20,494 bases of DNA from a virus. Shown here piece by piece: positions 2,895 through 20,494 of the stretch. Positions within the stretch are counted from its first letter, which is position 1. Every line of letters begins with the position of its first letter. The translations under genes and the position numbers were made by a program. The DNA lies in IMG/VR virus record IMGVR_UViG_3300027747_000952, positions 1 to 20,494 of that record; one strand, 5' to 3'. A model generated the notes under the pieces. It ran no database searches. It saw only the letters and a list, made by a program, of their open reading frames with translations, and was not told the DNA's origin.

Positions 2895-2904
2895 GAGATT
2901 AATT

Positions 2905-3612: not shown

Positions 3613-3626
3613 GATAGGATTTTAAA

Positions 3627-6033: not shown

Positions 6034-6689
6034 GAAATATTCCCATCATAGTTACTGCATATACTGGCGGAGAAGGCTCAGACATAAAAAGAAAAATGGT
6101 GGAAACACTATGTAAAGAACTGAGTCAATTAGGAATGTATGTTTGCCTAGCATCACATTCTACTATACCCGAAAGCACACAACAGTATTGTAATGGTTTC
6201 ATTTATGATTCGGATAATGATTTTCACATAAATGGATTACCGGTAGAAGGCCGCAATCATGGAATAGCAGAAATCAAATCAATACATAATGCTTTAAATT
6301 ATTTGGAAAGATTTGGTTTTACTGAATTTTTTAAAGTGACTTATGATGCTGATCCAAAATTACCTTACGTTACAATTATTGAGAGAGCTCAATTCATTGT
6401 AGATAACTATAAGAAAGAATTCATATGTTCTGGTTGGGGCGACAATAGAACTCTTGCAGCTTTGATGTTTTATTCTACTTTTGATTTTTATAGAAAAATT
6501 ACTCCCCTAGATACACCAGAACAATATAAATCTTGTTTTGAGGTGAATTGGTTTTTAAGTGCTGAAAACAAAAATATGTTAGACAAAATTCATATGTGTC
6601 ATGTTAGGTTGTATGATGACTTTCTAGGATTTCCAATTAGAGATTATGCCCACCAAGGTGGAACTGAAATAGATAACTATCCTTATTAA
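6030..6689 (+). CDS. Putative GT-A-like protein of the sugar island
   Basis: A 219-residue protein of unknown family. It begins with a strand typical of GT-A enzymes (IPIIVTAYTGG), has a paired LGMYVCLASHS strand, and carries YDADPK with a possible DxD at residues 106-108. Near the end are CHVRLYDDF and a HQGG segment. No membrane or secretion signal is seen. The GT assignment rests on the N-terminal strand, the DAD motif and the surroundings; it could equally be a sugar-binding or other nucleotide-diphospho-sugar protein. The ATG overlaps the previous stop (ATGA), and the next gene starts 2 bases after its stop. Confidence 0.5.
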   Translation: MRNIPIIVTAYTGGEGSDIKRKMVETLCKELSQLGMYVCLASHSTIPESTQQYCNGFIYDSDNDFHINGLPVEGRNHGIAEIKSIHNALNYLERFGFTEFFKVTYDADPKLPYVTIIERAQFIVDNYKKEFICSGWGDNRTLAALMFYSTFDFYRKITPLDTPEQYKSCFEVNWFLSAENKNMLDKIHMCHVRLYDDFLGFPIRDYAHQGGTEIDNYPY

Positions 6690-6691
6690 AA

Positions 6692-7399
6692 ATGATTATT
6701 AATATTACTGAAGGTGTATTTGGTGGTCCCGTTCGTAACGGCGATCTTGTTGCTGTTGCTAATGTTGTGGCTCATTTGAGAAAAGAACAACCAGAAATTA
6801 AGTTTCACATGAAACCAGGTTCTGTAAATTCCGCTGATTATGTGCAGAAGTTTTATCAGTTTATGTTAAAGAATACAGACTATTTCACTGAAGATATTGG
6901 TCAACAAGATTTAACATGGAGAAAAGTTAACTTATGGGATTTACGTGATATGATTGGTGATAGTGTAGTTATTACCAATAATAAAGTCACAGAAAAAAAG
7001 ATTGTTGTGTGTCCTATTTTTGATGCACCATATAATACATATCGCAATTGGCCAAAAGAGGTGTTTGAATCTGTCATTAAAAAATATTCAACTGATGAGT
7101 ATAAAGAATATGATAAGTTAATATGTGTAGATAATCGTTTTGGTGATTTTTTTAAATTTGATGGTTGGAAAATTTCTACAGATTTCGAACAAAATCTTAA
7201 TCACATTATGACTGCCGAAACCTTTATTGGTGGTGATACAGGTACAAGTCATTTTGCTTGGGCACTTGACAAAAGTCCTAAAAATCTATTATACTACAAT
7301 TCTGGTCGTGGTATGATGCATTGTTTACCATTTTATCTTTTAGAAGGTAAAGGTAAAGTAATGAAGTATTGGTTAAACATGGAAAATACAACTTTTTGA
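6692..7399 (+). CDS. GT9/heptosyltransferase-like glycosyltransferase
   Basis: A 235-residue GT-B-like protein. The C-terminal donor site is clear: FIGGDTGTSHFAWAL (from residue 178) matches the heptosyltransferase consensus (G-x-D-[ST]-G-x-x-H-x-A). The middle holds KKIVVCPIFDAPYNTYRNWP, which corresponds to the start of the second Rossmann domain with the W-P pair that precedes the donor helix. The N-terminal domain is shorter than in bacterial ADP-heptose transferases. GT9 enzymes add heptose or related sugars to lipopolysaccharide core. Here the donor is unknown, though the HAD plus nucleotidyltransferase fusion nearby could supply an activated sugar. It begins 2 bases after the upstream stop. 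Confidence 0.75.
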   Translation: MIINITEGVFGGPVRNGDLVAVANVVAHLRKEQPEIKFHMKPGSVNSADYVQKFYQFMLKNTDYFTEDIGQQDLTWRKVNLWDLRDMIGDSVVITNNKVTEKKIVVCPIFDAPYNTYRNWPKEVFESVIKKYSTDEYKEYDKLICVDNRFGDFFKFDGWKISTDFEQNLNHIMTAETFIGGDTGTSHFAWALDKSPKNLLYYNSGRGMMHCLPFYLLEGKGKVMKYWLNMENTTF

Positions 7400-7407
7400 T
7401 AGATCGT

Positions 7408-8016
7408 ATGAAATTAGGAATAGTATTGACGGGAATCACCAATGGTAGTGGACGTGATTGGAAAAATAATTGTGCAAGTGTCAAAGAAAAAATCATTGAT
7501 TGTTGGAAAGACCATGAAGTTAAATTATATTTAACAACATATGACAATTCAGAGATTGAAGAGTTGAATGAGTTTTTTAAACCTGATAAAATACAAATTT
7601 TTAAATTTGAAGGCAGTCATCAAAGAACAACTTACTATTCAAGTTTATTTAGTTTGATGAATGAAGATTTAGATTTCATTATATCCACAAGATTTGACAT
7701 TGATTTCAATGAAAGATTATCAAGTTATAATTTTGATATGAATAAAATGAATTTTATTTTTAGAGATAATTTGGATCTCTGGACTCGAAATAGATTTGTT
7801 GGTGATTGTCTACATGGAATACCTAAAGAGTATTTGCCTTGGTTTCTACAAGCACTAATGATTGAACACCAAACAAATTCTTGGTTTATGCATGGAATAT
7901 ATAATAGACTGATCGATATGTCTTTTGATACAGAAAAAATACATTTTTTATTAGAAGGTAATCATTCTAGTAATGAAAATTCGTTTTATAATTTAATGAG
8001 AGTGAAAGAAACTTAA
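7408..8016 (+). CDS. Member 1 of a four-copy transferase-like family
   Basis: A 202-residue protein. I start it at the ATG at 7408 (MKLGIVLTG), which aligns with the N-termini of its three relatives at 9391, 10147 and 10854; an in-frame TTG further upstream would overlap the previous gene. The family pattern is a first strand ending in TG or VG, a YLTTYD or DVFI.TYD strand near residue 40, and a short motif after an acidic strand, here LDFIISTRFDIDFN, elsewhere YDYLIRARFDLMYN. The R-x-D part could be a DxD-like nucleotide-sugar site, so these are candidate glycosyltransferases, but the family is not one I can name. This copy is the most divergent and sits apart from the other three. It is very AT-rich. 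Confidence 0.55.
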   Translation: MKLGIVLTGITNGSGRDWKNNCASVKEKIIDCWKDHEVKLYLTTYDNSEIEELNEFFKPDKIQIFKFEGSHQRTTYYSSLFSLMNEDLDFIISTRFDIDFNERLSSYNFDMNKMNFIFRDNLDLWTRNRFVGDCLHGIPKEYLPWFLQALMIEHQTNSWFMHGIYNRLIDMSFDTEKIHFLLEGNHSSNENSFYNLMRVKET

Positions 8017-8017
8017 T

Positions 8018-9394
8018 ATGACAACAAATAAATTAGTAATTTTTGATCTTGATGGTGTCTTACTCGATTCACGTGATCTACATTATGATGCACTCAATGA
8101 TGCCTTACGTAAAATTAGTGAAGAGTATGTTATCACAAGAGAAGAACATCTAAGCAAATATGATGGCCTAAACACCACCAAAAAATTAAAAATGTTGACA
8201 GAAGATAAAGGTCTTCCTGTTCAATACTATGATCGGATTTGGATTGACAAACAAGAAGCAACTTTTGATTTGCTTCCAAATGCATACTTCAATAAAGATG
8301 CCATTCTCGCAATGTCTACATTGAAGCAACGTGGTTGGAAAATTGCAGTTGCATCAAATAGTATCCGTGAGACAGTAAAAATTGCATTGAACTCTTGTCA
8401 TGCAATGCAATATGTTGATTATTTTGTTAGTAACGAAGATGTTTTCAATCCAAAGCCTTTTCCCGAAATGTATTGGCAGTGTATGACAAAAATGAAAGCA
8501 CTACCTAAAGATACAATCATTGTTGAAGATTCTCATATTGGCCGTGAAGGTGCAACTAATTCTGGTGGTAACTTGTATCCAGTAAAAGATGCTTACGATT
8601 TGAATTATAATACATTCATAAATTTTTGTGAAGAATTTGATACAAATATCAAAAAGAAAACTATACCATGGAGAAATAAAAAGATGAATGTTTTGATTCC
8701 TATGGCTGGTGCAGGATCTAGATTTGCACAAGCTGGTTACACTTTTCCCAAACCGTTGATTGAAGTCAATGGCAAACCAATGATTCAAGTTGTGGTTGAT
8801 AACCTAAACGTTGATGCACATTTCATTTTCATTGTTCAGAAAGAACACTATGAAAAGTATAATTTAAAATCTGTATTGAATTTAATTGCACCTGGATGTG
8901 ATATTGTTCAAGTAGATGGATTGACAGAAGGTGCCGCATGTACTACACTACTTGCTAAAGAATTAATTAACAATGATGAACCTTTGTTGATGGCTAACTC
9001 CGATCAATTTGTTGAATGGAACTCTAATGAATGTCTTTATGCTTTTACTGCCGATTCCATTGACGGTGGAATTGTTACTTTTGAGTCAACTCATCCTAAA
9101 TGGTCTTTTGCAAAACTTGGAAATGATGGATTTGTTTCTGAAGTGGCAGAGAAGAATCCTATATCTAACATTGCTACTGTTGGTATATACTATTGGAGTC
9201 ATGGTTCTGATTACGTGAAGTATGCTGAACAAATGATTAGTAAGAACGTTCGTGTCAACAATGAATTCTACGTATGTCCAGTTTTCAATGAAGCAATTGG
9301 TGATGGTAAGAAGATTCGTGTTAAGAATATCGAACGTATGTGGGGCATCGGTACACCAGAAGATTTAAATTACTTTTTGGAACACTATAAATGA
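8018..9394 (+). CDS. HAD phosphatase / sugar nucleotidyltransferase fusion
   Basis: A 458-residue two-domain protein. Residues 1-215 are a HAD hydrolase of the beta-phosphoglucomutase type: FDLDGVLLDS with D10 and D12 as nucleophile and acid/base, VASNS (111-115), the conserved Lys in NPKPFPE (K146), and VEDS (169-172). Residues 223-458 are a nucleotidyltransferase: MNVLIPMAGAGSRF then FPKPLI (nucleotide-binding signature), LLMANSDQ (323-330, D329 for metal) and a final GIGTPEDL. Such enzymes turn a sugar 1-phosphate plus NTP into a nucleotide sugar. The fusion suggests that one protein dephosphorylates an intermediate and then activates the sugar, which would feed the transferases around it. 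An ATG near 8684 begins the second domain, but I see no strong ribosome site there, so the long form is preferred. The sugar is unknown. Confidence 0.88.
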   Translation: MTTNKLVIFDLDGVLLDSRDLHYDALNDALRKISEEYVITREEHLSKYDGLNTTKKLKMLTEDKGLPVQYYDRIWIDKQEATFDLLPNAYFNKDAILAMSTLKQRGWKIAVASNSIRETVKIALNSCHAMQYVDYFVSNEDVFNPKPFPEMYWQCMTKMKALPKDTIIVEDSHIGREGATNSGGNLYPVKDAYDLNYNTFINFCEEFDTNIKKKTIPWRNKKMNVLIPMAGAGSRFAQAGYTFPKPLIEVNGKPMIQVVVDNLNVDAHFIFIVQKEHYEKYNLKSVLNLIAPGCDIVQVDGLTEGAACTTLLAKELINNDEPLLMANSDQFVEWNSNECLYAFTADSIDGGIVTFESTHPKWSFAKLGNDGFVSEVAEKNPISNIATVGIYYWSHGSDYVKYAEQMISKNVRVNNEFYVCPVFNEAIGDGKKIRVKNIERMWGIGTPEDLNYFLEHYK

Positions 9395-10128
9395 AAGTAG
9401 CATTATTAATGGTCGGCCACGTTAGAACTTGGCAAAGTTGTAAAGAAAATTTTAAACAAGTTTTTAAAGATAAAGATTTTGATGTTTTTATAACAACATA
9501 CGATTTAAAATATGATTATAATCAAGGAGTCAAAACACATCTTAATTTTTTTGAAGATGAGATATTAAAACAAAAAGATTTGTCTGATGTTTTTTCAGAA
9601 TTTTCTCCAAAAAGTATTGAGATTGAAGATTCATTGAAAATCAATAATTTAATAGAAGAAGAATCTTTAAAATTTCATAATTCTTTTAAGAATGTATATT
9701 TGGATGATAATCAAATGAAACCTTCTTATGGTTATTATAGAAAATTAAAAAAAGGACTTGATTTAATAGAAGATTATGAAAACAATAATAACTTTAAATA
9801 CGACAAAATTATTAAAGTGAGAACAGATGTAATTTTTAATTATATTGATTTTAATTTTAATGAAAATGAAGTTTTAGTAACTGGTCCCAATGATGATAAT
9901 GAGTATCCAGAAGATTTGATACTGATGTGTAATAGAAATAATATGTTTAATATTGTAAAATTTATTATTGGAGAATTTTACAATCCAGTATATGAAACAA
10001 GTGTTTTAGTAAGACCACATGGTTTATTAAAAAATGCTATAAATCACCTCAACCTTAAAAGGGTTACTAAAAGATTTGTTAATTGTATTCTTAGACCAAA
10101 TGATTTTAGGCTTCAAAGTCAATTTTAA
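9391..10128 (+). CDS. Member 2 of a four-copy transferase-like family
   Basis: A 245-residue protein starting MKVALLMVGHVRTW, clearly paralogous to the next two genes. Shared blocks are the N-terminus, DVFITTYDL near residue 31, YRKLKKGLDLIEDYE, YDKIIKVRTDVIFN (the family motif), and GEFYNPVYETS with RPHGLLKNAINH near the end; the last blocks are shared closely with the copy at 10147 only. It is exceptionally AT-rich (11 of 60 bases G/C at 9661-9720) and Asn/Lys/Phe-rich. It overlaps the upstream gene by ATGA. A GT-A-like role in sugar transfer is inferred from the motif and neighbours, not proven. Confidence 0.6.
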   Translation: MKVALLMVGHVRTWQSCKENFKQVFKDKDFDVFITTYDLKYDYNQGVKTHLNFFEDEILKQKDLSDVFSEFSPKSIEIEDSLKINNLIEEESLKFHNSFKNVYLDDNQMKPSYGYYRKLKKGLDLIEDYENNNNFKYDKIIKVRTDVIFNYIDFNFNENEVLVTGPNDDNEYPEDLILMCNRNNMFNIVKFIIGEFYNPVYETSVLVRPHGLLKNAINHLNLKRVTKRFVNCILRPNDFRLQSQF

Positions 10129-10146
10129 TATATTAAGTGAAAAATT

Positions 10147-10857
10147 ATGAAAATAGCATTAATGTTAGTGGGAAATGTCAGAACATTTGACCAATGTAAA
10201 GAAAGTTTTAAGAAAACTTTTGGTGACATTGATATTTTTATTTCCACATACGACTTGAGATATTGTTATCACCCTGTTGTTAAAAACAACATCGGGGATA
10301 CCCAAGATGAGATATTGACCTATGATTATCTCAATAAACTATTTGAAGGATTGAATGTAAAATCAGTCCTCATAGAACGGGATGAAGAAATCACTAGATT
10401 TGTAAATGAAGAAAACAGTAGATTGCATCCGTTACTACAAAATATACATTCATCTTATGCACAATATAGAAAACTAAAAACCTGTATTGATTTGGTTATC
10501 GACCATGAAAACAAAACAGGAGTCAAATATGATTACCTGATTCGTGCCAGATTTGATTTGATGTATAATGAATTCGACTATGATATTGGTGAGAAAGAAC
10601 TAATCCATGATGCTGGTAGCCAACCTGATAGTGAATTCTTGAATGACCAATTATTTTGGACAAATCGAGATGATATGGTTAATATATCCAACTTTATGAT
10701 GAATGAATTTTATAATCCAATTTATAGTAACAGTAATGAATCGCCACCACACGGCCTATTGAGAAATGCTATCAAACACAATAATTTAAAACGTACACCA
10801 AAAAATATTGTTAGTTACCTATTGCGTAAAAATGGTCAACAAGAAGGTAAAAAATGA
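10147..10857 (+). CDS. Member 3 of a four-copy transferase-like family
   Basis: A 236-residue tandem paralogue of the gene at 9391. Matches include MKIALMLVGNVRTF, DIFISTYDLRY, YRKLKTCIDLVIDHE, YDYLIRARFDLMYN, FYNPIYSNSNE and PPHGLLRNAIKHNNLKR. The DNA is less AT-extreme than its sister, which suggests either different acquisition times or relaxed drift in the other copy. It follows an 18-base gap and ends in an ATGA overlap with the fourth copy. The likely role is the same as its sister: a small cytosolic glycosyltransferase-like enzyme of unknown donor. Confidence 0.6.
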   Translation: MKIALMLVGNVRTFDQCKESFKKTFGDIDIFISTYDLRYCYHPVVKNNIGDTQDEILTYDYLNKLFEGLNVKSVLIERDEEITRFVNEENSRLHPLLQNIHSSYAQYRKLKTCIDLVIDHENKTGVKYDYLIRARFDLMYNEFDYDIGEKELIHDAGSQPDSEFLNDQLFWTNRDDMVNISNFMMNEFYNPIYSNSNESPPHGLLRNAIKHNNLKRTPKNIVSYLLRKNGQQEGKK

Positions 10858-11573
10858 AAGTTGCAGTTGTTTTAACAGGCCATATGAGAATGTGGAAAAC
10901 AGTATCTTCAAATTTTGAAGAAAGAATTTTGAAAAGATACAATCCAGATGTTTTCATTCACACATGGTCTGATGAAGGTTATTGTGATACATCAGAAACT
11001 TCTACAAAATTGGGTTATTATGAACAATCGCCTTCACTACCAATAAAGGATGTATCTGAAGCGTTTAATGCTTTAAAGATTGAAGTTGAAGATTTTGAAA
11101 AGTACAATAATACCTTTGAAGAAATAACCAAACAATATACCGAGCATCATGTTAGGCCTAAAAATCTATATTCAATGTTCAATAAAATGTCTAAAGGTTT
11201 AATGTTGATGGAAGATCATATGTTATCTACAGGTAAAAGATATGATCTAATTCTTAGACTTAGGCCAGATTTAATTTATAATGATGAACTTCCTAATTTT
11301 GATCCCAATGTTTTCTATACAAATGTACACCCAAATCACATGGGAAAAGGTACTGGTGATATGATGCAAGTAGGTAATATAGTGTCGTTATCTTTGTTTT
11401 CCAAAATAATTTATTTTATACCTGAACTTTATAAAGAAGTTGGATACGTATGTCCACATGAAATGTCTGAATTGTTCATCCGTAAATTAAATCTACCTTG
11501 GCAACAAATAAACATAAACAAAACACTAATGCATACACCAAAGGGTGCATATGTTCATAGGAAAGATTGGTAA
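10854..11573 (+). CDS. Member 4 of a four-copy transferase-like family
   Basis: A 239-residue protein sharing the family N-terminus (MKVAVVLTGHMRMW), DVFIHTWSDEG at about residues 33-43, and YDLILRLRPDLIYN. The N-terminal 45 residues resemble a group of short glycosyltransferase-like proteins found in large DNA viruses and environmental phages (opening V.L.G..R, then DVFIHTW), as far as I recall. The C-terminal third differs from the copies at 9391 and 10147, ending in MHTPKGAYVHRKDW. It overlaps the copy before it (ATGA) and the GDPD-like gene after it (TAATG). Confidence 0.6.
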   Translation: MKVAVVLTGHMRMWKTVSSNFEERILKRYNPDVFIHTWSDEGYCDTSETSTKLGYYEQSPSLPIKDVSEAFNALKIEVEDFEKYNNTFEEITKQYTEHHVRPKNLYSMFNKMSKGLMLMEDHMLSTGKRYDLILRLRPDLIYNDELPNFDPNVFYTNVHPNHMGKGTGDMMQVGNIVSLSLFSKIIYFIPELYKEVGYVCPHEMSELFIRKLNLPWQQININKTLMHTPKGAYVHRKDW

Positions 11574-12016
11574 TGATATACATCGCTCATAGAGGTCTTA
11601 CTGATGGACCTGACATTAATTTAGAGAATCGTCCAGAACAAATTGAATATGCACTTAGTGAAGGTTTTGATTGTGAAATTGATCTTTGGGTAGTAAACTC
11701 AGAATTGTACTTGGGCCACGACAGGCCAGATTATCCGATTGATATAAAATTCTTAGAAAAGTTTGGTCTGTGGATCCATGCTAAAAATCTGGCAGCTTTA
11801 CGTTGGTTAACTGACACCAATTTTACTTATTTTTGGCATGAAAATGACAAATTTACACTAACCAGTAATAATTTCATTTGGACATATCCAGATAATGAAT
11901 TGACTGGAAAAAGTATATGTGTCATGCCAGAATGGAAAGACCCTGAATTTAAAAATATTCCAACTAATTGTTTTGGTATCTGTAGTGATTATGTAAGAAA
12001 ACTCCGTGATAAATAA
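11573..12016 (+). CDS. Short glycerophosphodiester phosphodiesterase-like protein
   Basis: A 147-residue protein with the N-terminal half of the GDPD fold: IAHRG with H6, ENRPEQIEYAL, EIDLW with E35 and D37 as metal ligands, and LGHD with H49 as the second catalytic His. The known family hydrolyses glycerophosphodiesters and usually runs to about 240 residues or more; here the later barrel strands are short or missing, although the catalytic His-Glu-Asp-His set is retained. I start at the ATG at 11573, which overlaps the previous stop and has AGGAAA upstream, rather than the TTG two codons earlier. In the sugar island it could trim or transfer a phosphodiester-linked substituent such as glycerol phosphate; that is inference. 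Confidence 0.72.
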   Translation: MIYIAHRGLTDGPDINLENRPEQIEYALSEGFDCEIDLWVVNSELYLGHDRPDYPIDIKFLEKFGLWIHAKNLAALRWLTDTNFTYFWHENDKFTLTSNNFIWTYPDNELTGKSICVMPEWKDPEFKNIPTNCFGICSDYVRKLRDK

Positions 12017-12028
12017 ATAACATAAATA
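12008..12028 (+). promoter_or_regulatory. Cluster of T4-type late promoter boxes
   Basis: Three matches to the T4-like late box NATAAATA lie in 21 bases: GATAAATA (12008-12015, overlapping the end of the GDPD-like gene), AATAAATA (12012-12019) and CATAAATA (12021-12028). In T4-like phages this -10-like element, read by the gp55 sigma factor with gp45 and gp33, drives late genes and has no -35. The last box is 42 bases before the ATG at 12071, a normal late leader. The position exactly between the sugar island and the virion module supports the call; the 7-mer alone would occur by chance in DNA this AT-rich. Confidence 0.7.
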
Positions 12029-12070
12029 CTTTTAAGCAATCATAGTGTATTGCAAGTCTAAAGGGTTAAC

Positions 12071-12517
12071 ATGAAAACTTTTATATCTTTTCTGAAAGAA
12101 GAAGCTTCGGCAGATGCCGGTAAGCTAAAACACATTCACCACGCAGAAGATAGACCATTAATGCACGGTGCCGAAGGATTCGAACACGCATTTGGTGCTT
12201 TGAATCAAGCGCACGAACACATGAAAGCTAAGGCAAAAAGCAGTAATTTGACCATGAAATATGATGGTTCACCTTCTATTGTCTTTGGTCACCACCCAAA
12301 AACTGGTAAATTCTTTGTTGCAAGTAAGTCTGCATTTAATAAAACACCAAAGATTAATCACACCGAAGCGGACATTGACAGAAACCATGGCCATGCTCCA
12401 GGTCTTGCATCAAAACTTAAAGCCGCACTAAAACATCTACCTAAAGTCACACCAAAGACTGGTGTTTATCAGGGTGATATGATGCATTCTTCTGAGGATT
12501 TACACCACCATGACTAA
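12071..12517 (+). CDS. Ligase-like (KxDG) phage protein, N-terminal part
   Basis: The first 148 residues of a protein conserved in T4-like cyanophages (I believe DUF6267), here ended by a TAA where relatives, as I recall, continue. The N-terminus MKTFISFLKEEA resembles the T4 capsid-targeting peptide. KYDGSPSIVFG (63-73) fits motif I of the covalent nucleotidyltransferases (DNA/RNA ligases, KxDG, with Lys as the adenylated residue), and FFVASKSAF and TGVYQGDMM could be later motifs of that fold. Activity is therefore likely nucleotidyl transfer but unproven. It is His/Lys-rich. An AAAGGG ribosome site lies just before the ATG, behind the late boxes. The next gene carries the rest of the protein in the +1 frame. 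Confidence 0.75.
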   Translation: MKTFISFLKEEASADAGKLKHIHHAEDRPLMHGAEGFEHAFGALNQAHEHMKAKAKSSNLTMKYDGSPSIVFGHHPKTGKFFVASKSAFNKTPKINHTEADIDRNHGHAPGLASKLKAALKHLPKVTPKTGVYQGDMMHSSEDLHHHD

Positions 12518-12524
12518 AAAAGTA
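12503..12524 (+). other. Frame-change junction between the two halves
   Basis: The first half reads His-His-His-Asp and stops at TAA 12515-12517. Skipping the single T at 12515 turns the reading into Asp-Lys-Lys-Val-Ser-Phe-Thr-Pro, which rejoins the second half in frame and restores what looks like a continuous protein. The second half also has its own ATG at 12510, inside the end of the first. A run of six A follows the T. Options are a real gene split with coupled re-initiation, a +1 programmed frameshift at the stop, or a one-base assembly error. Confidence 0.7.
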
Positions 12525-13265
12525 TCATTTACACCAAACACAATCACTTATACGGCCAAAGGTGATGAAGCTAAAAAGATTGGTGCATCTAAAGTTGGCG
12601 TTGTAGTACACACGAAATATCATGGTAAAGACATTGCCGACATGACTGCTCACCATGCAGTTGACCACGAAAGTTTCAAACAACATCCTGATGTACACCA
12701 TCACGGTGCAGAACACGATACTGCTAAAATTAGCTATCCACAATCTGCACAAGATGATTTCCACAGACACATGCAAGCAGCTAAAGCAATCCATGACACA
12801 CATGGTGCAAAGATGTATCCTGCAACCGAAAAACATCGTGGTGAAAGCACTCACCTAACAACCTATATAAACAAAACTGTTGATACTGGTGAAGTTCCTA
12901 GTGTAGAAGGTTTGAAGAAGCATATTGCAAACCAACATGCTAAAATGGCAGATAAGGTTAAAACTGAGAAGGCAAAAGAGGCAAAAACTGCTGAAGGCCA
13001 ATCCCACATCGACCATATCGACAAAAATAAAGAGCATTATCAGAATCTTTTGACAATGCACCATCATTTGGCTCAAGCTAAGAACACTTTAGTTAAGCAT
13101 TTAGAGTCACATGAAGGTCATTACGAACACCACATCAGCGGTAAGAAATCTAAACCAGAAGGTTTTGTTGTGAACCATACTCCAGAATCTGGACAAACTG
13201 AACCAACAAAGCTAGTAAATAGAGCAGAATTTGCAAAACAGAATAGATTAAAGGTGAGAAAATGA
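12510..13265 (+). CDS. Ligase-like phage protein, C-terminal part
   Basis: A 251-residue protein that continues the gene before it. KVSFTPNTITYTAKG near the start and VGVVVHTKYHGKDI (29-42) match the central part of the same cyanophage family as I remember it, and would supply the later nucleotidyltransferase motifs. Residues 140-210 form a Lys/Glu/Ala/His-rich probable coiled coil. The end, PEGFVVNHTPESGQTEPTKLVNR, resembles the closing motif of ligase domains where an EGFVV or EGIVV segment carries a catalytic Lys nearby (here KPEGFVV then TKLV). The reading start at 12510 overlaps the upstream stop by 8 bases; no separate ribosome site is obvious. The stop overlaps the next ATG. Confidence 0.7.
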   Translation: MTKKVSFTPNTITYTAKGDEAKKIGASKVGVVVHTKYHGKDIADMTAHHAVDHESFKQHPDVHHHGAEHDTAKISYPQSAQDDFHRHMQAAKAIHDTHGAKMYPATEKHRGESTHLTTYINKTVDTGEVPSVEGLKKHIANQHAKMADKVKTEKAKEAKTAEGQSHIDHIDKNKEHYQNLLTMHHHLAQAKNTLVKHLESHEGHYEHHISGKKSKPEGFVVNHTPESGQTEPTKLVNRAEFAKQNRLKVRK

Positions 13266-14299
13266 ACGACTTACAAAAGAAAATTTATTGGGAAAGAGCT
13301 GGCATTCAGTTGGATGAAAGTGGAATGCCTATTCTTTCTGAAGCTAGAGGTAAAATTTCAGCTTCTGGTGCTGATGCGGAAGACCATATCAAAAAATATA
13401 TAACGCCGCATGTTGGCTCTGGTAAATTTTCACACACATTATCTTCTGAACATGGTGATTTACCTAAAGGTTCGCCTGTAAAAATTCATGGTGTAGAAAA
13501 ACACTATAATCTCACCACTGGTAAACACCAAACTCATGTTCATGTTGAAGATGAAGTTGGTAATCATCATACAATGTTGGCTTCAAAATTACATAAACCA
13601 GGTGAAGCTCCAGTAAACAAAGGACATGATTATGAGAATAAATTTGTAGCAAGACTAAAACACCATGGAATTATGCCACACCATATGTCTGGTGCAGGTT
13701 CTACAAGTGGTACAGACTTTGCTGTTGAGAATAAGAAAAAAGGAAAGTTTCACGCTGGTTCAGTTACTGGTAGTCTATTGAACGGCGAAACTAAAAATGG
13801 TGTTACTGCGGCAATGGGACAATTGACAATTCACCATACAAAAGAAAAAGGTTGGCATGTTGGTGATGCAGCTAAAAAGAAAAGACCTGAATATGCAAAA
13901 GAAATTGAAAAATCAGGCGTTCTTGACCATATGAACAAACACCATCCAAGTCCAGAGAAGTCTCACACAACCGAATCTGGTCGTGCGGCAACTACAGTAA
14001 TCAAACATCCAAATCTGCATCCAGCTGAGGCATATTTAAAAGATCATCATGTGCATGTATTGCAAGTTGGAGGTCATGGTACATATAGAGTTGGTGAAAA
14101 AGATGAAACTGGCCATGGTTTACCTAAGATTTCAGGTAAAGGTGAGTGGAGAATTAGAGAAAAACAAAAAGGCAATAAGTCAGCTCGCACTGTAGCTTTT
14201 CATCCTGATGGCAAAAAAGGTTTGAATAATAGTCATGTTGATTTAGATAAAGATGAACATATGGAAAAATTCAAGAAAACTTTGGGACATACAAATTAA
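13262..14299 (+). CDS. Putative PD-(D/E)XK-type nuclease
   Basis: A 345-residue His/Lys-rich protein. Residues 124-190 show the order of a restriction-endonuclease-like core: YENKFVARLKHHGI with E125, GTDFAV with D152, then NGETKNG with E176-x-K178, and a Q in AMGQL on the following helix. That is the E...D...ExK...Q pattern of the PD-(D/E)XK superfamily, which includes Holliday-junction resolvases and many phage nucleases. The N-terminal 120 residues hold KGSPVKIHGVEKHYNL and look like a small beta domain; the C-terminal part is basic. No database support was available. LSEARG at about 25-30 could be a gp21-type protease site. Its start overlaps the previous stop (ATGA). Confidence 0.5.
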   Translation: MNDLQKKIYWERAGIQLDESGMPILSEARGKISASGADAEDHIKKYITPHVGSGKFSHTLSSEHGDLPKGSPVKIHGVEKHYNLTTGKHQTHVHVEDEVGNHHTMLASKLHKPGEAPVNKGHDYENKFVARLKHHGIMPHHMSGAGSTSGTDFAVENKKKGKFHAGSVTGSLLNGETKNGVTAAMGQLTIHHTKEKGWHVGDAAKKKRPEYAKEIEKSGVLDHMNKHHPSPEKSHTTESGRAATTVIKHPNLHPAEAYLKDHHVHVLQVGGHGTYRVGEKDETGHGLPKISGKGEWRIREKQKGNKSARTVAFHPDGKKGLNNSHVDLDKDEHMEKFKKTLGHTN

Positions 14300-15820
14300 A
14301 TGAAATCGTTTCTAGAAGTTTTAAGAGAAGAAGAATCTGGTGATGTTCACCATGTTATGACTTTTGGTAGGATGAATCCTCCGACCACAGGCCATTTGAA
14401 AGTCATTGACAAAGTAAAAGAAATTGCAAAGAAACATGGTGCAGATCATACTGTGGTTGTTTCACACTCACAAGATGCAAAAAAGAATCCTTTGTCAGCT
14501 GAACAAAAATTAAAACACCTAAAGAGATATTCACCAGATACACATTTTGAAGCTTCATCTAAAGAACATCCAACATTTTTACAACATGCAGCAAAATTGC
14601 ATAAAAGTGGTGTAACACATCTACACATGGTCGTTGGTTCTGATCGTGTCAAAGAGATGCACGATAAGTTACACCAATACAATGGAACTCATCCTGGTGC
14701 ATTGTATAACTTCAAGAAGATAACTGTTCATTCTGCTGGTCAACGTGATCCTGACGCAGAAGGAACTGAAGGTATGTCTGGCACCAAGATGCGTGAACAT
14801 GCCAAGAATAATGACCTATCATCATTCAGAAAAGGTGTCCCTGCTCATGTTCCAGAACACCATGCAAAAGAATTGATGCATGATGTGCGTAAAGGAATGG
14901 GATTACATGAAAGTTACACATATGGTCGTAATAAGGCTATCTTTGTGACTGGTGGTCCAGGTTCAGGTAAAGATGTTGTCATTCGTGAATGCATTGCTGG
15001 TCAAAATATCACCGAACACAACTTTTCACAAGTGATTGATATTCTAAACGATAAACATAAGCTTGCAATGAGGTCTATGAATCCTCGTTTTGAATCGTTA
15101 CGCGCTCGCGGCCCATTAATCATCAATGGACCTGCTGATGATTTAGAAAAAATATCACACATCAAAGAAGAGCTAGAAGAACTCGGTTACAAAACAATGA
15201 TGATCTTTGTTGATACTTCTGATACGGTTAGTATGGAAAGAAACACACTATTATCAAGAATGATGGTAGAATCAATTCGCCACGAACGTTGGTGCAAATC
15301 ACAAGAAAATCTTGATGCATTTTCTGAAATGTTTAACAATTTTATTAGATTTGACAATACAAGTAGTTTAGAACTAATAGAAGAAGATATCACAGAAACT
15401 TATCATAAAACAAATGATTTCTTGGGTGGTGTTTATAACAACACAAACACCAATAGATTCATAAATATCTACGAATCAAAAAAACAATCAAAAGCTATTC
15501 AAAATACAAATTTGAAAGATAAAAAATTATTGAGAGATAACGATGATCCTCTTGGTAATTTTCAGCGTACACTAGGAAAACCAGATAGTATTGGTGGTGG
15601 CGGTAGTGGTGGTAATAGTGATTACATATATAAAACCTACGAATCTAAAGTTGGTTTTAAAAATTTCTATAAAGATAAAGAATCAGGAAAACCCAATACT
15701 TCAATATCTAAAACCAGTAAAAATACTTTATATGGCACAGGTGTTGGTCCAGACTTTGATACACGTACATCAGGTGAAGGTTTAACTGGAGGTGCTGGAC
15801 TAGGTAATCCAGCAGCCTAA
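14300..15820 (+). CDS. Nucleotidyltransferase / P-loop kinase fusion (NadR-like layout)
   Basis: A 506-residue protein of at least two domains. Residues 17-200 belong to the HxGH cytidylyl/adenylyltransferase family: FGRMNPPTTGH (22-32), VVGSDRVKEM in the middle, and MSGTKMR (159-165) as the ISxTxxR motif. This domain matches a protein widespread in T4-like cyanophages. From about 210 a P-loop domain follows, GGPGSGKD (218-225), with a kinase-like MIFVDTSD strand and Arg-rich lid region. The combination resembles NadR (NMN adenylyltransferase plus ribosylnicotinamide kinase), but the substrate is not shown. Residues 420-506 are Gly/Ser/Lys-rich, with a natural GGGGSGG linker near 434. The N-terminus MKSFLEVLREEES is capsid-targeting-like. 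Confidence 0.78.
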   Translation: MKSFLEVLREEESGDVHHVMTFGRMNPPTTGHLKVIDKVKEIAKKHGADHTVVVSHSQDAKKNPLSAEQKLKHLKRYSPDTHFEASSKEHPTFLQHAAKLHKSGVTHLHMVVGSDRVKEMHDKLHQYNGTHPGALYNFKKITVHSAGQRDPDAEGTEGMSGTKMREHAKNNDLSSFRKGVPAHVPEHHAKELMHDVRKGMGLHESYTYGRNKAIFVTGGPGSGKDVVIRECIAGQNITEHNFSQVIDILNDKHKLAMRSMNPRFESLRARGPLIINGPADDLEKISHIKEELEELGYKTMMIFVDTSDTVSMERNTLLSRMMVESIRHERWCKSQENLDAFSEMFNNFIRFDNTSSLELIEEDITETYHKTNDFLGGVYNNTNTNRFINIYESKKQSKAIQNTNLKDKKLLRDNDDPLGNFQRTLGKPDSIGGGGSGGNSDYIYKTYESKVGFKNFYKDKESGKPNTSISKTSKNTLYGTGVGPDFDTRTSGEGLTGGAGLGNPAA

Positions 15821-15821
15821 T

Positions 15822-16325
15822 ATGCTTAGTTTTAAATCTTTCATCAATTTAAATGAAGGTCCTTTAGACCAAATGTTTAATAAAGATTCATTAGATTCAC
15901 CGTCTAATACACCTTTTCAACCTAGAAATGTTAGTCCTAATCCATTAGGTGAGAAAAAGAAAGTAAAAGGATTTAAAGAATCTTTGAATTCTGGTGAAAC
16001 TGGTAATGGTGATCAAATGCCAGTAACAGGTCAGATGAATGGAACCAATGTGATGCCATTAGTGACTCCGTTGGATAAAAAAAGAGCAAAAATTATAACT
16101 ACTATACCAGATAGTATTACAGCTAATAATGTTAAAGAATGTGTAGATGAGTTGGAAAAAGGTCTTCAAAAATTGAATGATTACGGGCATGAGCCAATCA
16201 ATAAATTGATGATGGCTATTTCTAAAAAACATGGTATTACAGGAAAAGAACTACATAATAGGTTCAAAGAAAAAAATAAAACAACACCAGACAACTGGAT
16301 TAAAAATAAACTAGGAGCAAAATAA
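15822..16325 (+). CDS. Uncharacterised late-module protein
   Basis: A 167-residue protein of no recognised family. The N-terminus MLSFKSFINLNEGP resembles the capsid-targeting peptides of its neighbours, with LNE|G as a possible gp21-type cleavage point. Residues 15-80 are Pro/Asn/Gly-rich and probably disordered. Residues 95-165 look helical, and KKHGITGKELHNRFKEKNK is a compact helix-turn segment. Given its place between two probable virion proteins it is likely packaged or structural, but this is positional inference. It begins 1 base after the previous stop and overlaps the next start. Confidence 0.6.
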   Translation: MLSFKSFINLNEGPLDQMFNKDSLDSPSNTPFQPRNVSPNPLGEKKKVKGFKESLNSGETGNGDQMPVTGQMNGTNVMPLVTPLDKKRAKIITTIPDSITANNVKECVDELEKGLQKLNDYGHEPINKLMMAISKKHGITGKELHNRFKEKNKTTPDNWIKNKLGAK

Positions 16326-18016
16326 TGTTTACCAAAAACGCAGTTTCACAAGACGTAATTGATGCAGTTAATAGCATTCTCGTGCAAGAAGAAAAAAAAC
16401 AAATGCTTTTAGAGCCAGGAAAGAAAATGGAACTAGAAACTGGTTTCCATATGGCTGCACATGCTGCTAAAAAGGCAAATCAATCACATTTTGAGTTTCA
16501 AGGTAAAAAGTATCCTGTAACTGCAAAGAGTACATCAGAAGCTATTGAAGAATCCGAAAGTAATTTAGATCACGTAAGAAATAAATTTAGAAGTACATAC
16601 GGATTTGATCCAAAACGTGCTGGAGAAAGACATAACCAAAATATGGATCGTGCTTCAGAAAGACATAACCAAGATATTGATCATTTTATTAAACATAATC
16701 AAAAACGCCGCGAAATCGAAACAGATTATCATGCTCGAAAAAGAGAAATAGATTTGAAACACCATGAAAATGATCCATTGCAGGACATGGGTAGAGCGAT
16801 AGTCGATAGATATAAAAATTATAAAAGAGTTAATGAAAAAGTAACAATAGTTCATGGTGAACCACCAGAAGGAGTTCAACATACTAATGGAATGGTTCAT
16901 AGAAATCATAATGGAATAAATTCAAGCATTTTATATACAAGAAAACCAGCACCGTCAGTTCCTGTAAAACAAAGTGTTTTAAATAAAGTTAGAAGCCAAA
17001 GAGCAGAATCTATCGACGAAGAAAAAGACGATGATAGTATGTACACAACCAAAGCACAAGCAAAGAAAATTGCTGATAAAGAAGCTGCTAAAGAAGTACA
17101 CAAGCATGAAAAACATCTTCACAAAGGTTCAAAAGAAACTAAGTTTGATGAAGAACGTCACATGACTGATGATGAAATGGCAAAGCGTGAAAAAATTGTT
17201 AAGTCTATGAAAAAAGGCATGGCTGGTTTCAAAGAAAGATATGGCAACCGTGCTAAAAATGTAATGTATGCTACTGCTACAAAACAAGCAATGCACCATG
17301 AAGAAGTTGACCTGAATGAAGAAATGCATTTTAGAAAAACACATAAAATGTCACATGTTCATTCTCCAGATACTATTTCTGTTACTCATGCTCACCACAA
17401 AGATCATGGTCATATTGGTCATATCGAAGAATACCATGAGTGTGATGCTGGTGGAAAACATACAGGAAATAAAAAGTATGCTATGGAACATTATCCTTCT
17501 GGCAAACAAATGCATGGTTGCGATACAAGTGAAGAGGCATCAAAACACTTGAAGAAATTCCATGAAGATTACTGTGGAAAGATGGAATCTATGGGATTGA
17601 AGATGGAAGAAAAAGAAACTTCTACAAAGAAAGTTACTCCAAAGAAAGAAAGCATTGGTGGTATTGTTGGTGCAGGCGATGGTTTAGGAAATGTAAAAGA
17701 AGATATGAAAGTTGATACTCTTGCAGGTCCAACAAACATCAAAAATATACCAAAAAAACAAGCAAAAGAATTATCAATTTCAAATGGTCACAGCAGTGTT
17801 AAAAAGGGTGAACTAATAAATTCAGGTGACGCTGCACCTGAACCACGCAATAAGCCTCCTTATAAAGTAAAAGCTTTTGAAGCTAAAACACCTGATGGTC
17901 AAATTGGTGACTTTACTCCAAGTGTCGATCAACCATTGAAAGAACGTGTTAAAGACATGGCAAAGCGTAAATTCAGAAAAGAAAATATGTCTGGCCTTAC
18001 ATTATCCGACCAATAA
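16325..18016 (+). CDS. Mosaic Lys/His-rich late protein with marine T4-like motifs
   Basis: A 563-residue protein, mostly charged and low in complexity. Three recognisable blocks stand out: SHFEFQGKKYPVTAKS (about 59-74), a helical Arg/His/Glu-rich region at 85-150 with the repeated ERHNQ motif (two copies), and MTDDEMAKREKIVKSMKK to YGNRAKNVMYATATK at 280-320, a motif that I recall in many proteins of marine T4-like phages. A His-rich beta-like segment follows (340-395: SHVHSP, THAHHKDHGH, HIGHIEEYHECD), then a disordered tail. No enzyme motif is seen. It could be a scaffold, an internal head or a DNA-binding packaged protein. It is coupled upstream by TAATG. Confidence 0.6.
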   Translation: MFTKNAVSQDVIDAVNSILVQEEKKQMLLEPGKKMELETGFHMAAHAAKKANQSHFEFQGKKYPVTAKSTSEAIEESESNLDHVRNKFRSTYGFDPKRAGERHNQNMDRASERHNQDIDHFIKHNQKRREIETDYHARKREIDLKHHENDPLQDMGRAIVDRYKNYKRVNEKVTIVHGEPPEGVQHTNGMVHRNHNGINSSILYTRKPAPSVPVKQSVLNKVRSQRAESIDEEKDDDSMYTTKAQAKKIADKEAAKEVHKHEKHLHKGSKETKFDEERHMTDDEMAKREKIVKSMKKGMAGFKERYGNRAKNVMYATATKQAMHHEEVDLNEEMHFRKTHKMSHVHSPDTISVTHAHHKDHGHIGHIEEYHECDAGGKHTGNKKYAMEHYPSGKQMHGCDTSEEASKHLKKFHEDYCGKMESMGLKMEEKETSTKKVTPKKESIGGIVGAGDGLGNVKEDMKVDTLAGPTNIKNIPKKQAKELSISNGHSSVKKGELINSGDAAPEPRNKPPYKVKAFEAKTPDGQIGDFTPSVDQPLKERVKDMAKRKFRKENMSGLTLSDQ

Positions 18017-18017
18017 A

Positions 18018-19061
18018 ATGAAAAATAAACTTTCGGGTTTAGTTATATCAGTTGTAAAAAAGGTTGACCCAAAAACTGGTTTTGGATCTGACCCAAATGC
18101 TCCTTGGATAAAAGATAACATCGATGAGAATATAACCTCAAGACGTTCTGATCTATTGAAACAATTTTATAAAGCCATGGGTTACAATATGACTTATGTT
18201 ACTAAAAATCAAAGAGTAGCAAAAGCTAAAACTGGCCAGTTTATTAAATGGAAAAGAGAACACGGAATCTATGAAGAAGATTTGACTACACAAACGGATC
18301 ATCCAGAAATTCGTTCTCACGTTGCAGATTCTCCTACTAAAAAGCGCCAAGCTCAATTAAATAGAGCAGCGAGACACTATGATATTCCTGCAGCATCTGC
18401 ACCACATTCAAATGGTCTAAGAAAAGAATCTGGTGAAATTTGTCAGCAATGTTTAAGTGATCCATGCATATGTGATGATAGCCATGGATTCATAGAGGAA
18501 AAAGATATGGGAATTAGCAAAGCTTCAGAAACAAAATTTCACGCAAAGTTGGATAAACTTGTACACAAAACATTTGGTAAAAGAGAAAATGAATCTACTA
18601 TGTACGATAATCCAAGAACAAAAATTAATACACCCGATATGACGGAAGGTGTTGGTGATCCAAAAGCTGGAAGTTATCAACCGGGTGTTACTCCTGGTCC
18701 TGATGGTTGGTCAGTAGAACCTCCAGAAATGATTGGACACAAAAAAACTGCTGCAAAAATTATTAAAAATATTGTAAACGAGAAAAAAAGATTACAAAAA
18801 GAAGAATTGGATGATTGGGAAAAGAGAGACAAGGAACCTGGTACAAAAATTGATGGTTATGGAAAAAAACCATCATTCAGTAAGTCTGATGATGATAAAA
18901 ACATTGGTGATAAAAAACCAGATGCTGAATTGATACTTAAAGGTGGTACAACGTTGACAGGTGAAAAGAGAGATGTTATTGAGATTAATCCAATGATGAA
19001 GAAACGTGAAACGGTACCTGACTATAATAGTAAGAACAATATTAATCAAAGTCAGAAATAA
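18018..19061 (+). CDS. Uncharacterised late protein with Cys cluster
   Basis: A 347-residue protein; I start it at the ATG at 18018, just after the previous stop, rather than at an upstream in-frame GTG inside the neighbour. Residues 43-80 (RSDLLKQFYKAMGYNMTYVTK and TGQFIKWKREHGI) form a small basic domain of the kind repeated in late proteins of marine T4-like phages. ICQQCLSDPCICDD (C142, C145, C150, C152) could bind zinc. Beyond residue 200 the chain is Lys/Gly/Pro-rich and probably disordered. No function is assigned; a packaged or structural role is inferred from position before a second late promoter. Confidence 0.55.
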   Translation: MKNKLSGLVISVVKKVDPKTGFGSDPNAPWIKDNIDENITSRRSDLLKQFYKAMGYNMTYVTKNQRVAKAKTGQFIKWKREHGIYEEDLTTQTDHPEIRSHVADSPTKKRQAQLNRAARHYDIPAASAPHSNGLRKESGEICQQCLSDPCICDDSHGFIEEKDMGISKASETKFHAKLDKLVHKTFGKRENESTMYDNPRTKINTPDMTEGVGDPKAGSYQPGVTPGPDGWSVEPPEMIGHKKTAAKIIKNIVNEKKRLQKEELDDWEKRDKEPGTKIDGYGKKPSFSKSDDDKNIGDKKPDAELILKGGTTLTGEKRDVIEINPMMKKRETVPDYNSKNNINQSQK

Positions 19062-19068
19062 CAAGAAC

Positions 19069-19076
19069 AATAAATA
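19069..19076 (+). promoter_or_regulatory. T4-type late promoter box
   Basis: AATAAATA matches NATAAATA and sits in the only gap of the late module longer than 30 bases, 31 bases before the ATG at 19108. A separate late promoter would suit a virion protein made in quantity. Single matches of this motif are weak evidence in AT-rich DNA. Confidence 0.55.
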
Positions 19077-19095
19077 GATAGAATACCTTTCTACC

Positions 19096-19101
19096 AAGGA
19101 G
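19096..19101 (+). promoter_or_regulatory. Strong Shine-Dalgarno of the structural gene
   Basis: AAGGAG with a 6-base spacer to the ATG at 19108. With the late box just upstream it predicts high expression of this gene, as expected of a capsid or decoration protein. Confidence 0.8.
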
Positions 19102-19107
19102 AAAAAA

Positions 19108-19734
19108 ATGGCATACGAATCATGGAATAATAACGACAACCCAGGACTTGGATTTGGACATCCAGAATGGCCTGCTACTAGAGTAACAAGAGAAGTAGTA
19201 CAATTAACTACAGCTAATTTAACAACATCTGGTGTAACAAGCATTAAATTTGCATACACAGCAAACGTTGCAAATGTTGGTGTGGCTGTTGGTCAATATG
19301 TAAATTATTTGCCTACGACAACATCAGACCCATCAGCAAACCTTTCATCAAATGGTTCTGTTGGCATGTTCCCATCAAATAATAAAGTTAGTGTTATTAG
19401 TGGTAATTTAGTAATTTTGACCGCAGCAACAACAGGTAATATTCCTGCAAACGCAATAATTGCATTTGATTCTGCTATTGTTTATCCAGCTGGAAAAACT
19501 GTTGAAGTAACGTATAACGCAGATACAGTTCTAGCAACACCAACAAGAATAACTGCTGCAAACAATAAAATTGGTGGTAGTATTAGTGTTGGTTGGGTAC
19601 ATGTACAAAAGAAAACAAATAATGATGGAACAATTCGTTACATCAGAGAAACATTAATTGCTTTGGCTAACGCAACTTCTTCAAACACATTTGGTGGTAA
19701 TACCTCATGGGGTCAGGCATTCGCTAATACCTAA
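19108..19734 (+). CDS. Probable virion structural protein
   Basis: A 208-residue protein rich in Thr, Ala, Asn, Val and Gly, lacking Cys and charged clusters, with many short beta-strand-like segments. This composition is typical of decoration or fibre-like virion proteins and unlike its Lys/His-rich neighbours. The start MAYESWNNNDNPGLGFG and the end GTIRYIRETLIALANAT followed by a W-rich tail fit structural proteins of T4-like cyanophages and pelagiphages as I recall, although I cannot give a gp number. It has its own late box and strong ribosome site, so it is probably made in quantity. Confidence 0.65.
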   Translation: MAYESWNNNDNPGLGFGHPEWPATRVTREVVQLTTANLTTSGVTSIKFAYTANVANVGVAVGQYVNYLPTTTSDPSANLSSNGSVGMFPSNNKVSVISGNLVILTAATTGNIPANAIIAFDSAIVYPAGKTVEVTYNADTVLATPTRITAANNKIGGSISVGWVHVQKKTNNDGTIRYIRETLIALANATSSNTFGGNTSWGQAFANT

Positions 19735-19749
19735 TAGTTTGTTTTTATA

Positions 19750-20139
19750 ATGGGGTTTGATGATTTAAATGAAGATAACTTTGTAATGTATGCAGTTAAA
19801 TGTTATACATCACCTAGTTGCTTAATGTCTGAGTTCGAGGGTGATCTTAAAAGGACGAAATACTTAAAGAGATTGTTTCGTAGATATAAGATCACCAAAA
19901 ACGTTAAAGAGAGGTTGATACTTAACCATATCATAATGCTCAATAATGTTTTTGGACCAGAAGCTACGGCAAGAATTTTGTTTTTTAGGATTGATGAAAA
20001 AGATTACGATTCATTAAAAACATTCTTACTTTATTTGAATATTTTACCTGAAGTTGTTAAGGGCATTAAGGGCAAAAACATAATAACAGATATTATTCCA
20101 GTAGACATGACGATTGCTGAAATACTTAGAAAAATATGA
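19750..20139 (+). CDS. Conserved small protein of T4-like aquatic phages
   Basis: A 129-residue protein matching a family that I recall in many T4-like cyanophages (possibly DUF7207): an acidic start with NEDNFVMYAVKCY, then MSEFEGDLKRTKYLKRLFRRYK (residues 26-47), a helix LKERLILNH-type segment (here VKERLILNHIIML), and NVFGPEATARILFFRID. It appears all-helical with an amphipathic core and a basic patch (KRTKYLKRLFRRYK) that could bind nucleic acid. No enzymatic motif is seen. It has a weak ribosome site and its TGA overlaps the next ATG, so the two are coupled. Confidence 0.72.
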   Translation: MGFDDLNEDNFVMYAVKCYTSPSCLMSEFEGDLKRTKYLKRLFRRYKITKNVKERLILNHIIMLNNVFGPEATARILFFRIDEKDYDSLKTFLLYLNILPEVVKGIKGKNIITDIIPVDMTIAEILRKI

Positions 20140-20494
20140 AAACTTTTAAACAATTCACTAAAGAAGCATGCTGGCCAGGTTACAGAAGAGTTCCTGGTAC
20201 AAAAGCATTCTCTAAAGGGTCTTGTGTTAAAGAAGATAATATAGAAGAATCTCAGGTTGATGAAGATTTAAGAAAATGGTTCAAGCAAGATTGGGTTCGC
20301 ATGGACACCAAAGGTAATGTTAAAGGTCAATGTGCTAGAGAACCAGGTGAAGGCAAACCAAAATGTTTACCTAGAGCAAAAGCAAATGCAATAGGTCAAG
20401 AAGGCAGAGCAAAAGCTGCACAAAGAAAACGCCGTGAAGATCCAAATCCAGAACGCCATGGTTCACCAATAAATGTCAAGACAGAAAGTGCAGC
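20136..20494 (+). CDS. DUF5872-like protein (3' partial)
   Basis: The first 119 codons of a gene that runs off the window; it is too late in the window to close. The start overlaps the previous stop (ATGA). The N-terminus MKTFKQFTKEAC is capsid-targeting-like. It is followed by WPGYRRVPGTKAFSKGSC and then KWFKQDWVRMDTKGNVKGQC, KPKCLPRAKANA and RAKAAQRKRREDP, the Cys/Lys pattern that I associate with DUF5872. The Cys residues (four visible) could bind a metal. Function is unknown; the basic Cys-rich body suggests nucleic-acid contact, which would suit a packaged protein, but that is inference. Confidence 0.7.
   Translation, partial: MKTFKQFTKEACWPGYRRVPGTKAFSKGSCVKEDNIEESQVDEDLRKWFKQDWVRMDTKGNVKGQCAREPGEGKPKCLPRAKANAIGQEGRAKAAQRKRREDPNPERHGSPINVKTESA

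Follow-up and report, generated by a model that had tools for sequence, protein, structure and literature searches.

A close described counterpart of the system considered here is found in phage T4, whose internal proteins IPI, IPII and IPIII carry capsid-targeting sequence (CTS) propeptides (Mullaney and Black 1996, as related in the consulted part of PMC9026906); amber-suppressor substitutions in IPIII, covered in the same part of that source, assign targeting mainly to residues 4 and 7, and processing to residues 8 and 10. In the giant phages SPN3US and phiKZ, leaders removed by a protease have been proposed to target ejection proteins of the inner head (PMC5694885). Here we examine a 20,494-base IMG/VR fragment (record IMGVR_UViG_3300027747_000952; the whole stretch is called ‘the window’) from an uncultured T4-like water phage with kinship to Kyanoviridae, in which four proteins, starting at positions 12071, 14300, 15822 and 20136, open with a short CTS-like ‘tag’. 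Sequence, comparison and published proteomics together support our view that the leaders at 12071, 14300, 20136 and, probably, 15822 are very likely to be T4-type CTSs. Going by these leaders and by analogy with T4, the tagged enzymes probably travel inside the virion and enter the next host cell along with the DNA.

The four leaders and their conservation

The window has the gene for helicase gp41 at its left end and a late-looking block that runs from 12071 to the window end, to the right of a cassette at 2307-12016; its CTS-like and alternative leaders, the genes at 12071, 12510, 14300, 15822 and 20136, the LHE site, the promoter and the hairpin described below lie on the plus strand. An equivalent block sits between genes 41 and 61 in HTVC008M and Syn9, and after a gp41-type helicase in Melnitz-3. 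The N-terminal peptides singled out by the original prediction are all present, namely MKTFISFLKEEA (12071), MKSFLEVLREEE (14300), MLSFKSFINLNEG (15822) and MKTFKQFTKEA (20136), with the tag at residues 1-10 in each case and the start codons backed by homologues. Residue 4 is F in all four and residue 7 is F, V, F and F, respectively. The likeness to T4 holds at residues 4, 7 and 10 for the leaders at 12071, 14300 and 20136, where residue 8 is L, L and T, but only in part for 15822. The consensus for the T4 prohead protease gp21, (L/I)xE at residues 8-10, is strictly kept in MKTFISFLKE (LKE; 12071..12100) and MKSFLEVLRE (LRE; 14300..14329), for both of which a cut would be expected after E10; MKTFKQFTKE (20136..20165) has TKE and is nearest, by comparison of N-termini, to IPI (MKTFKEFT), with which it shares a T at residue 8. 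The leader at 15822 is a spacing variant (MLSFKSFINLNE, 15822..15857), with the CTS core present at residues 4 and 7, and LNE at 10-12 rather than 8-10, such that the glutamate falls at residue 12; the same shifted spacing is seen in two HTVC008M proteins (MKSFKDFQNVNE and MLSFTGYSNLSE).

Conservation across homologues follows the same positions. Among 37 unique N-termini of homologues of the DUF6267 protein encoded at 12071, F4, F/Y7 and L/I8 are each kept in 35 and E10 in 36, with residues 2, 3, 5 and 6 the most variable; five codons are used for Leu8, and synonymous codons vary at the conserved columns, therefore selection acts on the peptide. The 42 unique N-termini of homologues of the nucleotidyltransferase (NTase) encoded at 14300 have F4 in 39, L/I/V7 in 37, L/I/V8 in all 42 and E10 in 39; here residues 2, 3 and 5 are also well kept (K, S, L), and residue 9 is variable. 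Save for hydrophobic swaps at 7 and 8, the near-invariant columns 4, 7, 8 and 10 coincide with the residues defined by mutation in IPIII, which bears out the choice of T4 capsid targeting as the system to which these leaders were originally compared. The mature parts of 139 unique tagged open reading frames (ORFs) from relatives form at least nine groups with no detectable similarity between groups, and the tag is, as judged from these alignments, modular across unrelated mature proteins. In four phages from outside the lineage, the NTase begins with its catalytic domain or close to it, and jumbo-phage NTases have no such N-terminal extension.

The excess of tags was gauged on genes predicted by a simple longest-ORF rule. 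Multiplied background frequencies for [FY]4 x [FYLVI]7 x [LIVT]8 x E10 (N-termini from five related genomes) give 1e-3 per gene, and the full four-position pattern occurs in 0/992 background genes of the related genomes. Three of the ten genes within 12071-20494 match, with a binomial probability of about 1e-7 that is descriptive, since the pattern postdates inspection of the window. Scanned with M..[FY]..[FYLVIHM][LIVMT].E, one genome per lineage gives 13/83 block genes vs 0/1008 elsewhere, and all scanned genomes (the window, G001, G002, G003, G005, HTVC008M, most of Melnitz-3, and Syn9) give 20/105 inside the block vs 0/1331 outside, with internal Met-started 10-mers matching in 6 of 8115 cases as a control; these numbers and P values are descriptive rather than formal tests, as the pattern was fixed after the sequences had been seen, the block borders were set by hand and the genomes are kin. 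A lack of enrichment over the other genes of the phage had been named beforehand as grounds for abandoning the idea, and an excess is what we find.

Virion evidence and competing explanations

A gp21 homologue, which the original prediction suggested looking for, is present in the relatives: all six of the longest (G001-G005 and G009) encode a gp21-type prohead protease (PF03420, S77). As a separate observation, at L199 (G009:115020-116428) tagged proteins beginning MGSFATFLTEV and MKTFRNFIHEN adjoin gp21 in the head gene cluster.

NTase orthologues have been detected by mass spectrometry in the virions of three cyanophages, according to the consulted parts of the respective papers: T4-GC190 in S-SM1 (PMC3037559), ORF154 in S-CREM2 (PMC10665884) and ORF91 in S-SCSM1 (PMC9602691). 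All three carry a canonical tag (MKKFSAFLNEA, MKNFSSFLTEA and MKSFLQFLKEA, respectively), such that the idea of the kinase-like enzyme at 14300 as virion cargo gains support from tagged orthologues in other phages. In S-SCSM1, the equivalent block comprises ORFs 89-98, and 7 of these 10 genes have a virion-protein annotation; ORFs 154, 155, 156 and 160 are listed among the S-CREM2 virion proteins in the same portion of that report (PMC10665884). Cyanophage virion studies have thus repeatedly found NMNAT/cytidylyltransferase-like enzymes whose authors could not separate cargo from contamination; the canonical tag on 3/3 virion-detected copies argues for cargo. A search on capsid targeting in cyanophages, confined to one collection of papers, matched only the T4 review.

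Synthesising these findings, we propose that proteins made late would bind the prohead core via their first ten residues, with the aromatic or hydrophobic residues at 4 and 7 making the contact; that a gp21-type protease would cut after (L/I/V)xE at residue 10, inside the head and before DNA packaging; and that the mature protein, freed in the head, would exit with the DNA at infection. Among the cargo would be DUF6267, as a ligase-like nucleotidyltransferase, and the enzyme in which an NMNAT-like domain is fused to a kinase; as to the benefit of this cargo, we can only guess at early NAD or nucleic-acid metabolism, end repair or counter-defence. For the window phage itself, core binding, cleavage and injection are all steps that we infer.

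Several points weigh against this model, beside the descriptive status of the enrichment figures. At 20 kb, the window does not take in the head cluster and stops short of gp21. The virion data found come from more distant phages and include no DUF6267 protein, and the consulted passages of the proteomics papers leave the choice between cargo and co-purification of the enzyme open (PMC10665884, PMC9602691). The tag is also degraded in the HTVC008M NTase (MKTLKELLRKK, without E10), and the DUF6267 proteins of Syn9 and S-SM1 lack it.

Other explanations must be set beside it. The tag may be real, and may bring these proteins into the prohead core, where they would act as scaffold or DNA-condensing head proteins instead of delivered enzymes: neighbouring block proteins are annotated as head proteins in Syn9 and S-SM1, several block proteins are rich in His and Lys, and T4 IPIII is described as contributing to head shape in the section of PMC9026906 consulted. 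We nevertheless regard this as unlikely, in that the catalytic motifs (K62, D64 and G65 of DUF6267; GGPGSGK and N-PPT-GH of the NTase) are invariant, as would be expected of active enzymes. Very improbable, in our estimation, is a peptide that docks to a membrane, a chaperone or some other late complex; the NTase model is helical over residues 4-12, and a short amphipathic stretch of this kind could bind many surfaces, but the conserved positions fit the T4 CTS down to the protease residues 8 and 10, for which docking would have no need, and tagged orthologues are present in virions. Finally, ATG-AAA starts in AT-rich phage genes could throw up MK look-alikes by chance, and MK starts are indeed common (119 of 992 background genes); MK[TS]F, however, occurs in just one of the 992 and the four-position pattern in none, and conservation reaches residue 10 with synonymous codon changes. 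Chance with start bias is contradicted by the enrichment, and is an explanation that we consider scarcely credible and reject.

The tagged genes and their surroundings

The gene at 12071 had been called ‘ligase-like’; it does carry the tag, but encodes just the opening half of DUF6267, whose gene is split here. The N-terminal half (12071..12517, 148 aa; PF19782, E=6e-48, profile 2-122 of 376) contains a KYDG nucleotidyltransferase motif, and the C-terminal half (12510..13265, 251 aa; profile 132-371) has its own ATG, with an overlap of 8 nt (12510-12517, ATGACTAA) in which the second ATG lies over the first stop. Nucleotidyltransferase motifs I/III lie on one side of the break and motif IV on the other; at least nine relatives share the ATGACTAA junction with the window, and other relatives have a single ORF. 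In L060 the halves overlap differently (ATGAGTAA), which favours an overlapping stop-start over a slip site; a +1 frameshift as the cause of the split is on this ground tentatively disfavoured. The ligase-like label is read from the KxDG and EGxV motifs, of which K62-x-D64-G65 and E367-G368-x-V370 are invariant among homologues. A fold search placed a DNA ligase at the top, with a weak match (E=0.17) and nothing below E=0.001; a PDB sequence search with DUF6267 and the NTase returned no useful match. In the predicted DUF6267 model, residues 1-19 are unstructured.

Upstream of 12071 lies a T4-type late promoter element (CATAAATA, 12021..12028; consensus TATAAATA), in which ATAAATA is invariant in 23/23 aligned sequences, from which a small number of relatives whose upstream regions differ had been left out; counted in the window alone such elements are not above chance, and only the comparative result is used. 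Just downstream, covariation picks out a leader hairpin (GCAAT-CATAGTGT-ATTGC, 12036..12053) of 5 pairs, 97.4% paired, with two-sided changes at 3 pairs and a covariation score reached by 0/500 shuffles. The hairpin, whose consensus is GCAAY-CAWAGUGU-RUUGC with a near-invariant loop, sits at the expected late transcript start and has no Rfam match; an Rfam search of the late block as a whole likewise gave no credible match.

The product of 14300..15820 (506 aa) matches PF01467 above the cut-off (E=1.1e-7), with a CTP_transf_like fold and a PPTxGH motif, and its fold matches include NadD (E about 1e-4) and polynucleotide/adenylate kinases; judged by sequence and model, it is an NMNAT/NadD-like nucleotidyltransferase fused to a P-loop kinase-like domain. 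The linker before the kinase domain contains LHE (14903..14911), a candidate internal gp21-type site, and [LI]xE is found at this column in 27/29 NTase-kinase homologues; the stand-alone kinases of HTVC008M and Melnitz-3 have leaders that end ..LKE-G and ..LQE-G at the equivalent junction. Some unsplit DUF6267 proteins, which form one class, show (L/I)xE within the loop at which the gene is divided in the window lineage. It is possible, if doubtful, that the prohead protease would also cut packaged enzymes at domain borders, in which case the capsid might act as a ‘maturation chamber’ for the enzymes to be injected. A universal internal gp21 cut in DUF6267 was considered and rejected, as in many relatives the loop is short and the site is missing from it.

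The tagged set is not confined to the four genes first proposed, as the family of the 345-aa protein at 13262 adds the tag in some relatives. In the window, this protein has an alternative leader of 27 aa (13262..13342; MNDLQKK...PILSE) that precedes the conserved (A/G)RGKxxASG start, here ARGKISASG; at the same junction L033 (MKTFSTYIVE) and L038 and L040 (MISFKSFLLETE) have a canonical CTS, followed by GRGxLTASG, and the family thus shows a swap of leaders. A phage search with the 13262 protein gave no match among annotated phages. This second leader type, M...Q.K(I/L)(Y/W)(W/L)(E/D)RAG...LxE, recurs on a different G001 protein (115344-116345), which suggests another shared propeptide class.

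The tagged proteins had also been described as otherwise unrelated, and those at 12071, 14300 and 20136 are so; the 167-aa protein at 15822..16325 is not, its middle being the C-terminal tail of 14300 homologues in relatives. Alignments and domain matches resolve it into a new leader, the tail that ends the NTase of ~590 residues in relatives (506 in the window), and a domain that sits inside the 20136 orthologue in L069. As read from these alignments, it is in part a tail that has broken away from a tagged protein and is now headed by a tag-like start of its own. The gene at 20136..20494 encodes a Cys/Trp-containing basic protein (phrog_727, E=1e-14; relatives MKTFKSFINEKGRCWPG and others) and runs past the window end.

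Elsewhere in the block, 16325-18016 encodes a large His/Lys-rich protein with an N-terminus of its own, MFTKxxVSQxxIDAVxxIL...EEKK..LLEPE, that is kept across relatives and is possibly a third leader type. The inserted sugar and glycosyltransferase cassette at 2307-12016, between a gp41-adjacent ORF and the late block, contains glycosyltransferase, sugar nucleotidyltransferase/HAD and methyltransferase-like genes, and this site has different gene content in relatives G001, G002, G003 and G005.

Comparison with described packaging systems

A scan of T4 (1-50 kb and 60-160 kb, 235 predicted genes) matched only ipII, ipIII and gene 61.1; ipI, which starts MKTFKEFTST, was missed because it has no E10. 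The start of gp61.1 (L213:18966-19130, NC_000866), MKTFKEFIKEDMVAGDSGGNPE, has the full CTS pattern, and its gene has the same setting as the window block, between genes 61 and 41. Short Gly/Ala/Pro-rich, Lys-rich tagged proteins of relatives (e.g. L075, MKSFKEFVKEDGGGG) resemble gp61.1, and a related AGYDP/GPT motif is found in untagged cyanophage proteins that have head- or virion-protein annotations. On sequence, gp61.1 is a probable head protein, and the tag thus points to an unstudied gene product of the standard laboratory phage. More broadly, the tag offers a sequence rule by which injected proteins might be predicted in T4-like phages of the sea and of fresh water, most of which cannot be cultured.

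With the T4 internal proteins, the window proteins share a ten-residue leader, hydrophobic or aromatic residues at 4 and 7, (L/I)xE at 8-10, unrelated mature domains, late expression and, in the relatives, a gp21-type protease. The T4 proteins are small, fast-changing and basic, whereas those described here include multi-domain enzymes kept across phages of diverse hosts; the likeness also has its limit at cleavage and injection, which in the present case we infer. The original prediction ascribed MKTYQEFIAE-like peptides both to the internal proteins, for which this holds, and to T4 Alt, whose leader (MELITELFDE) resembles the tag of the internal proteins only loosely. Alt, the packaged RNA polymerase ADP-ribosyltransferase, is nonetheless a parallel in that it is an enzyme with a short N-terminal propeptide and E at residue 10, though with a divergent leader and an unrelated catalytic class; and because T4 already packages this enzyme, a tag on an enzyme is not as unusual as had been claimed.

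Further parallels are the NTases of S-SM1, S-CREM2 and S-SCSM1, which are orthologous, have the same tag and are found in virions; in S-SM1 and S-SCSM1 their genes also belong to this block, with genes 41 and 61 on either side of it; the window version differs from the virion-detected enzymes in being fused to a P-loop kinase domain. In the consulted parts of the papers on these virions, no targeting signal is reported. The propeptides of SPN3US and phiKZ differ in being mostly >100 residues long and in having another consensus. What has been known, then, is a set of small CTS-tagged T4 proteins; what appears to be new here is the enzyme cargo, and the wide spread of the tag among T4-like phages of other bacteria.

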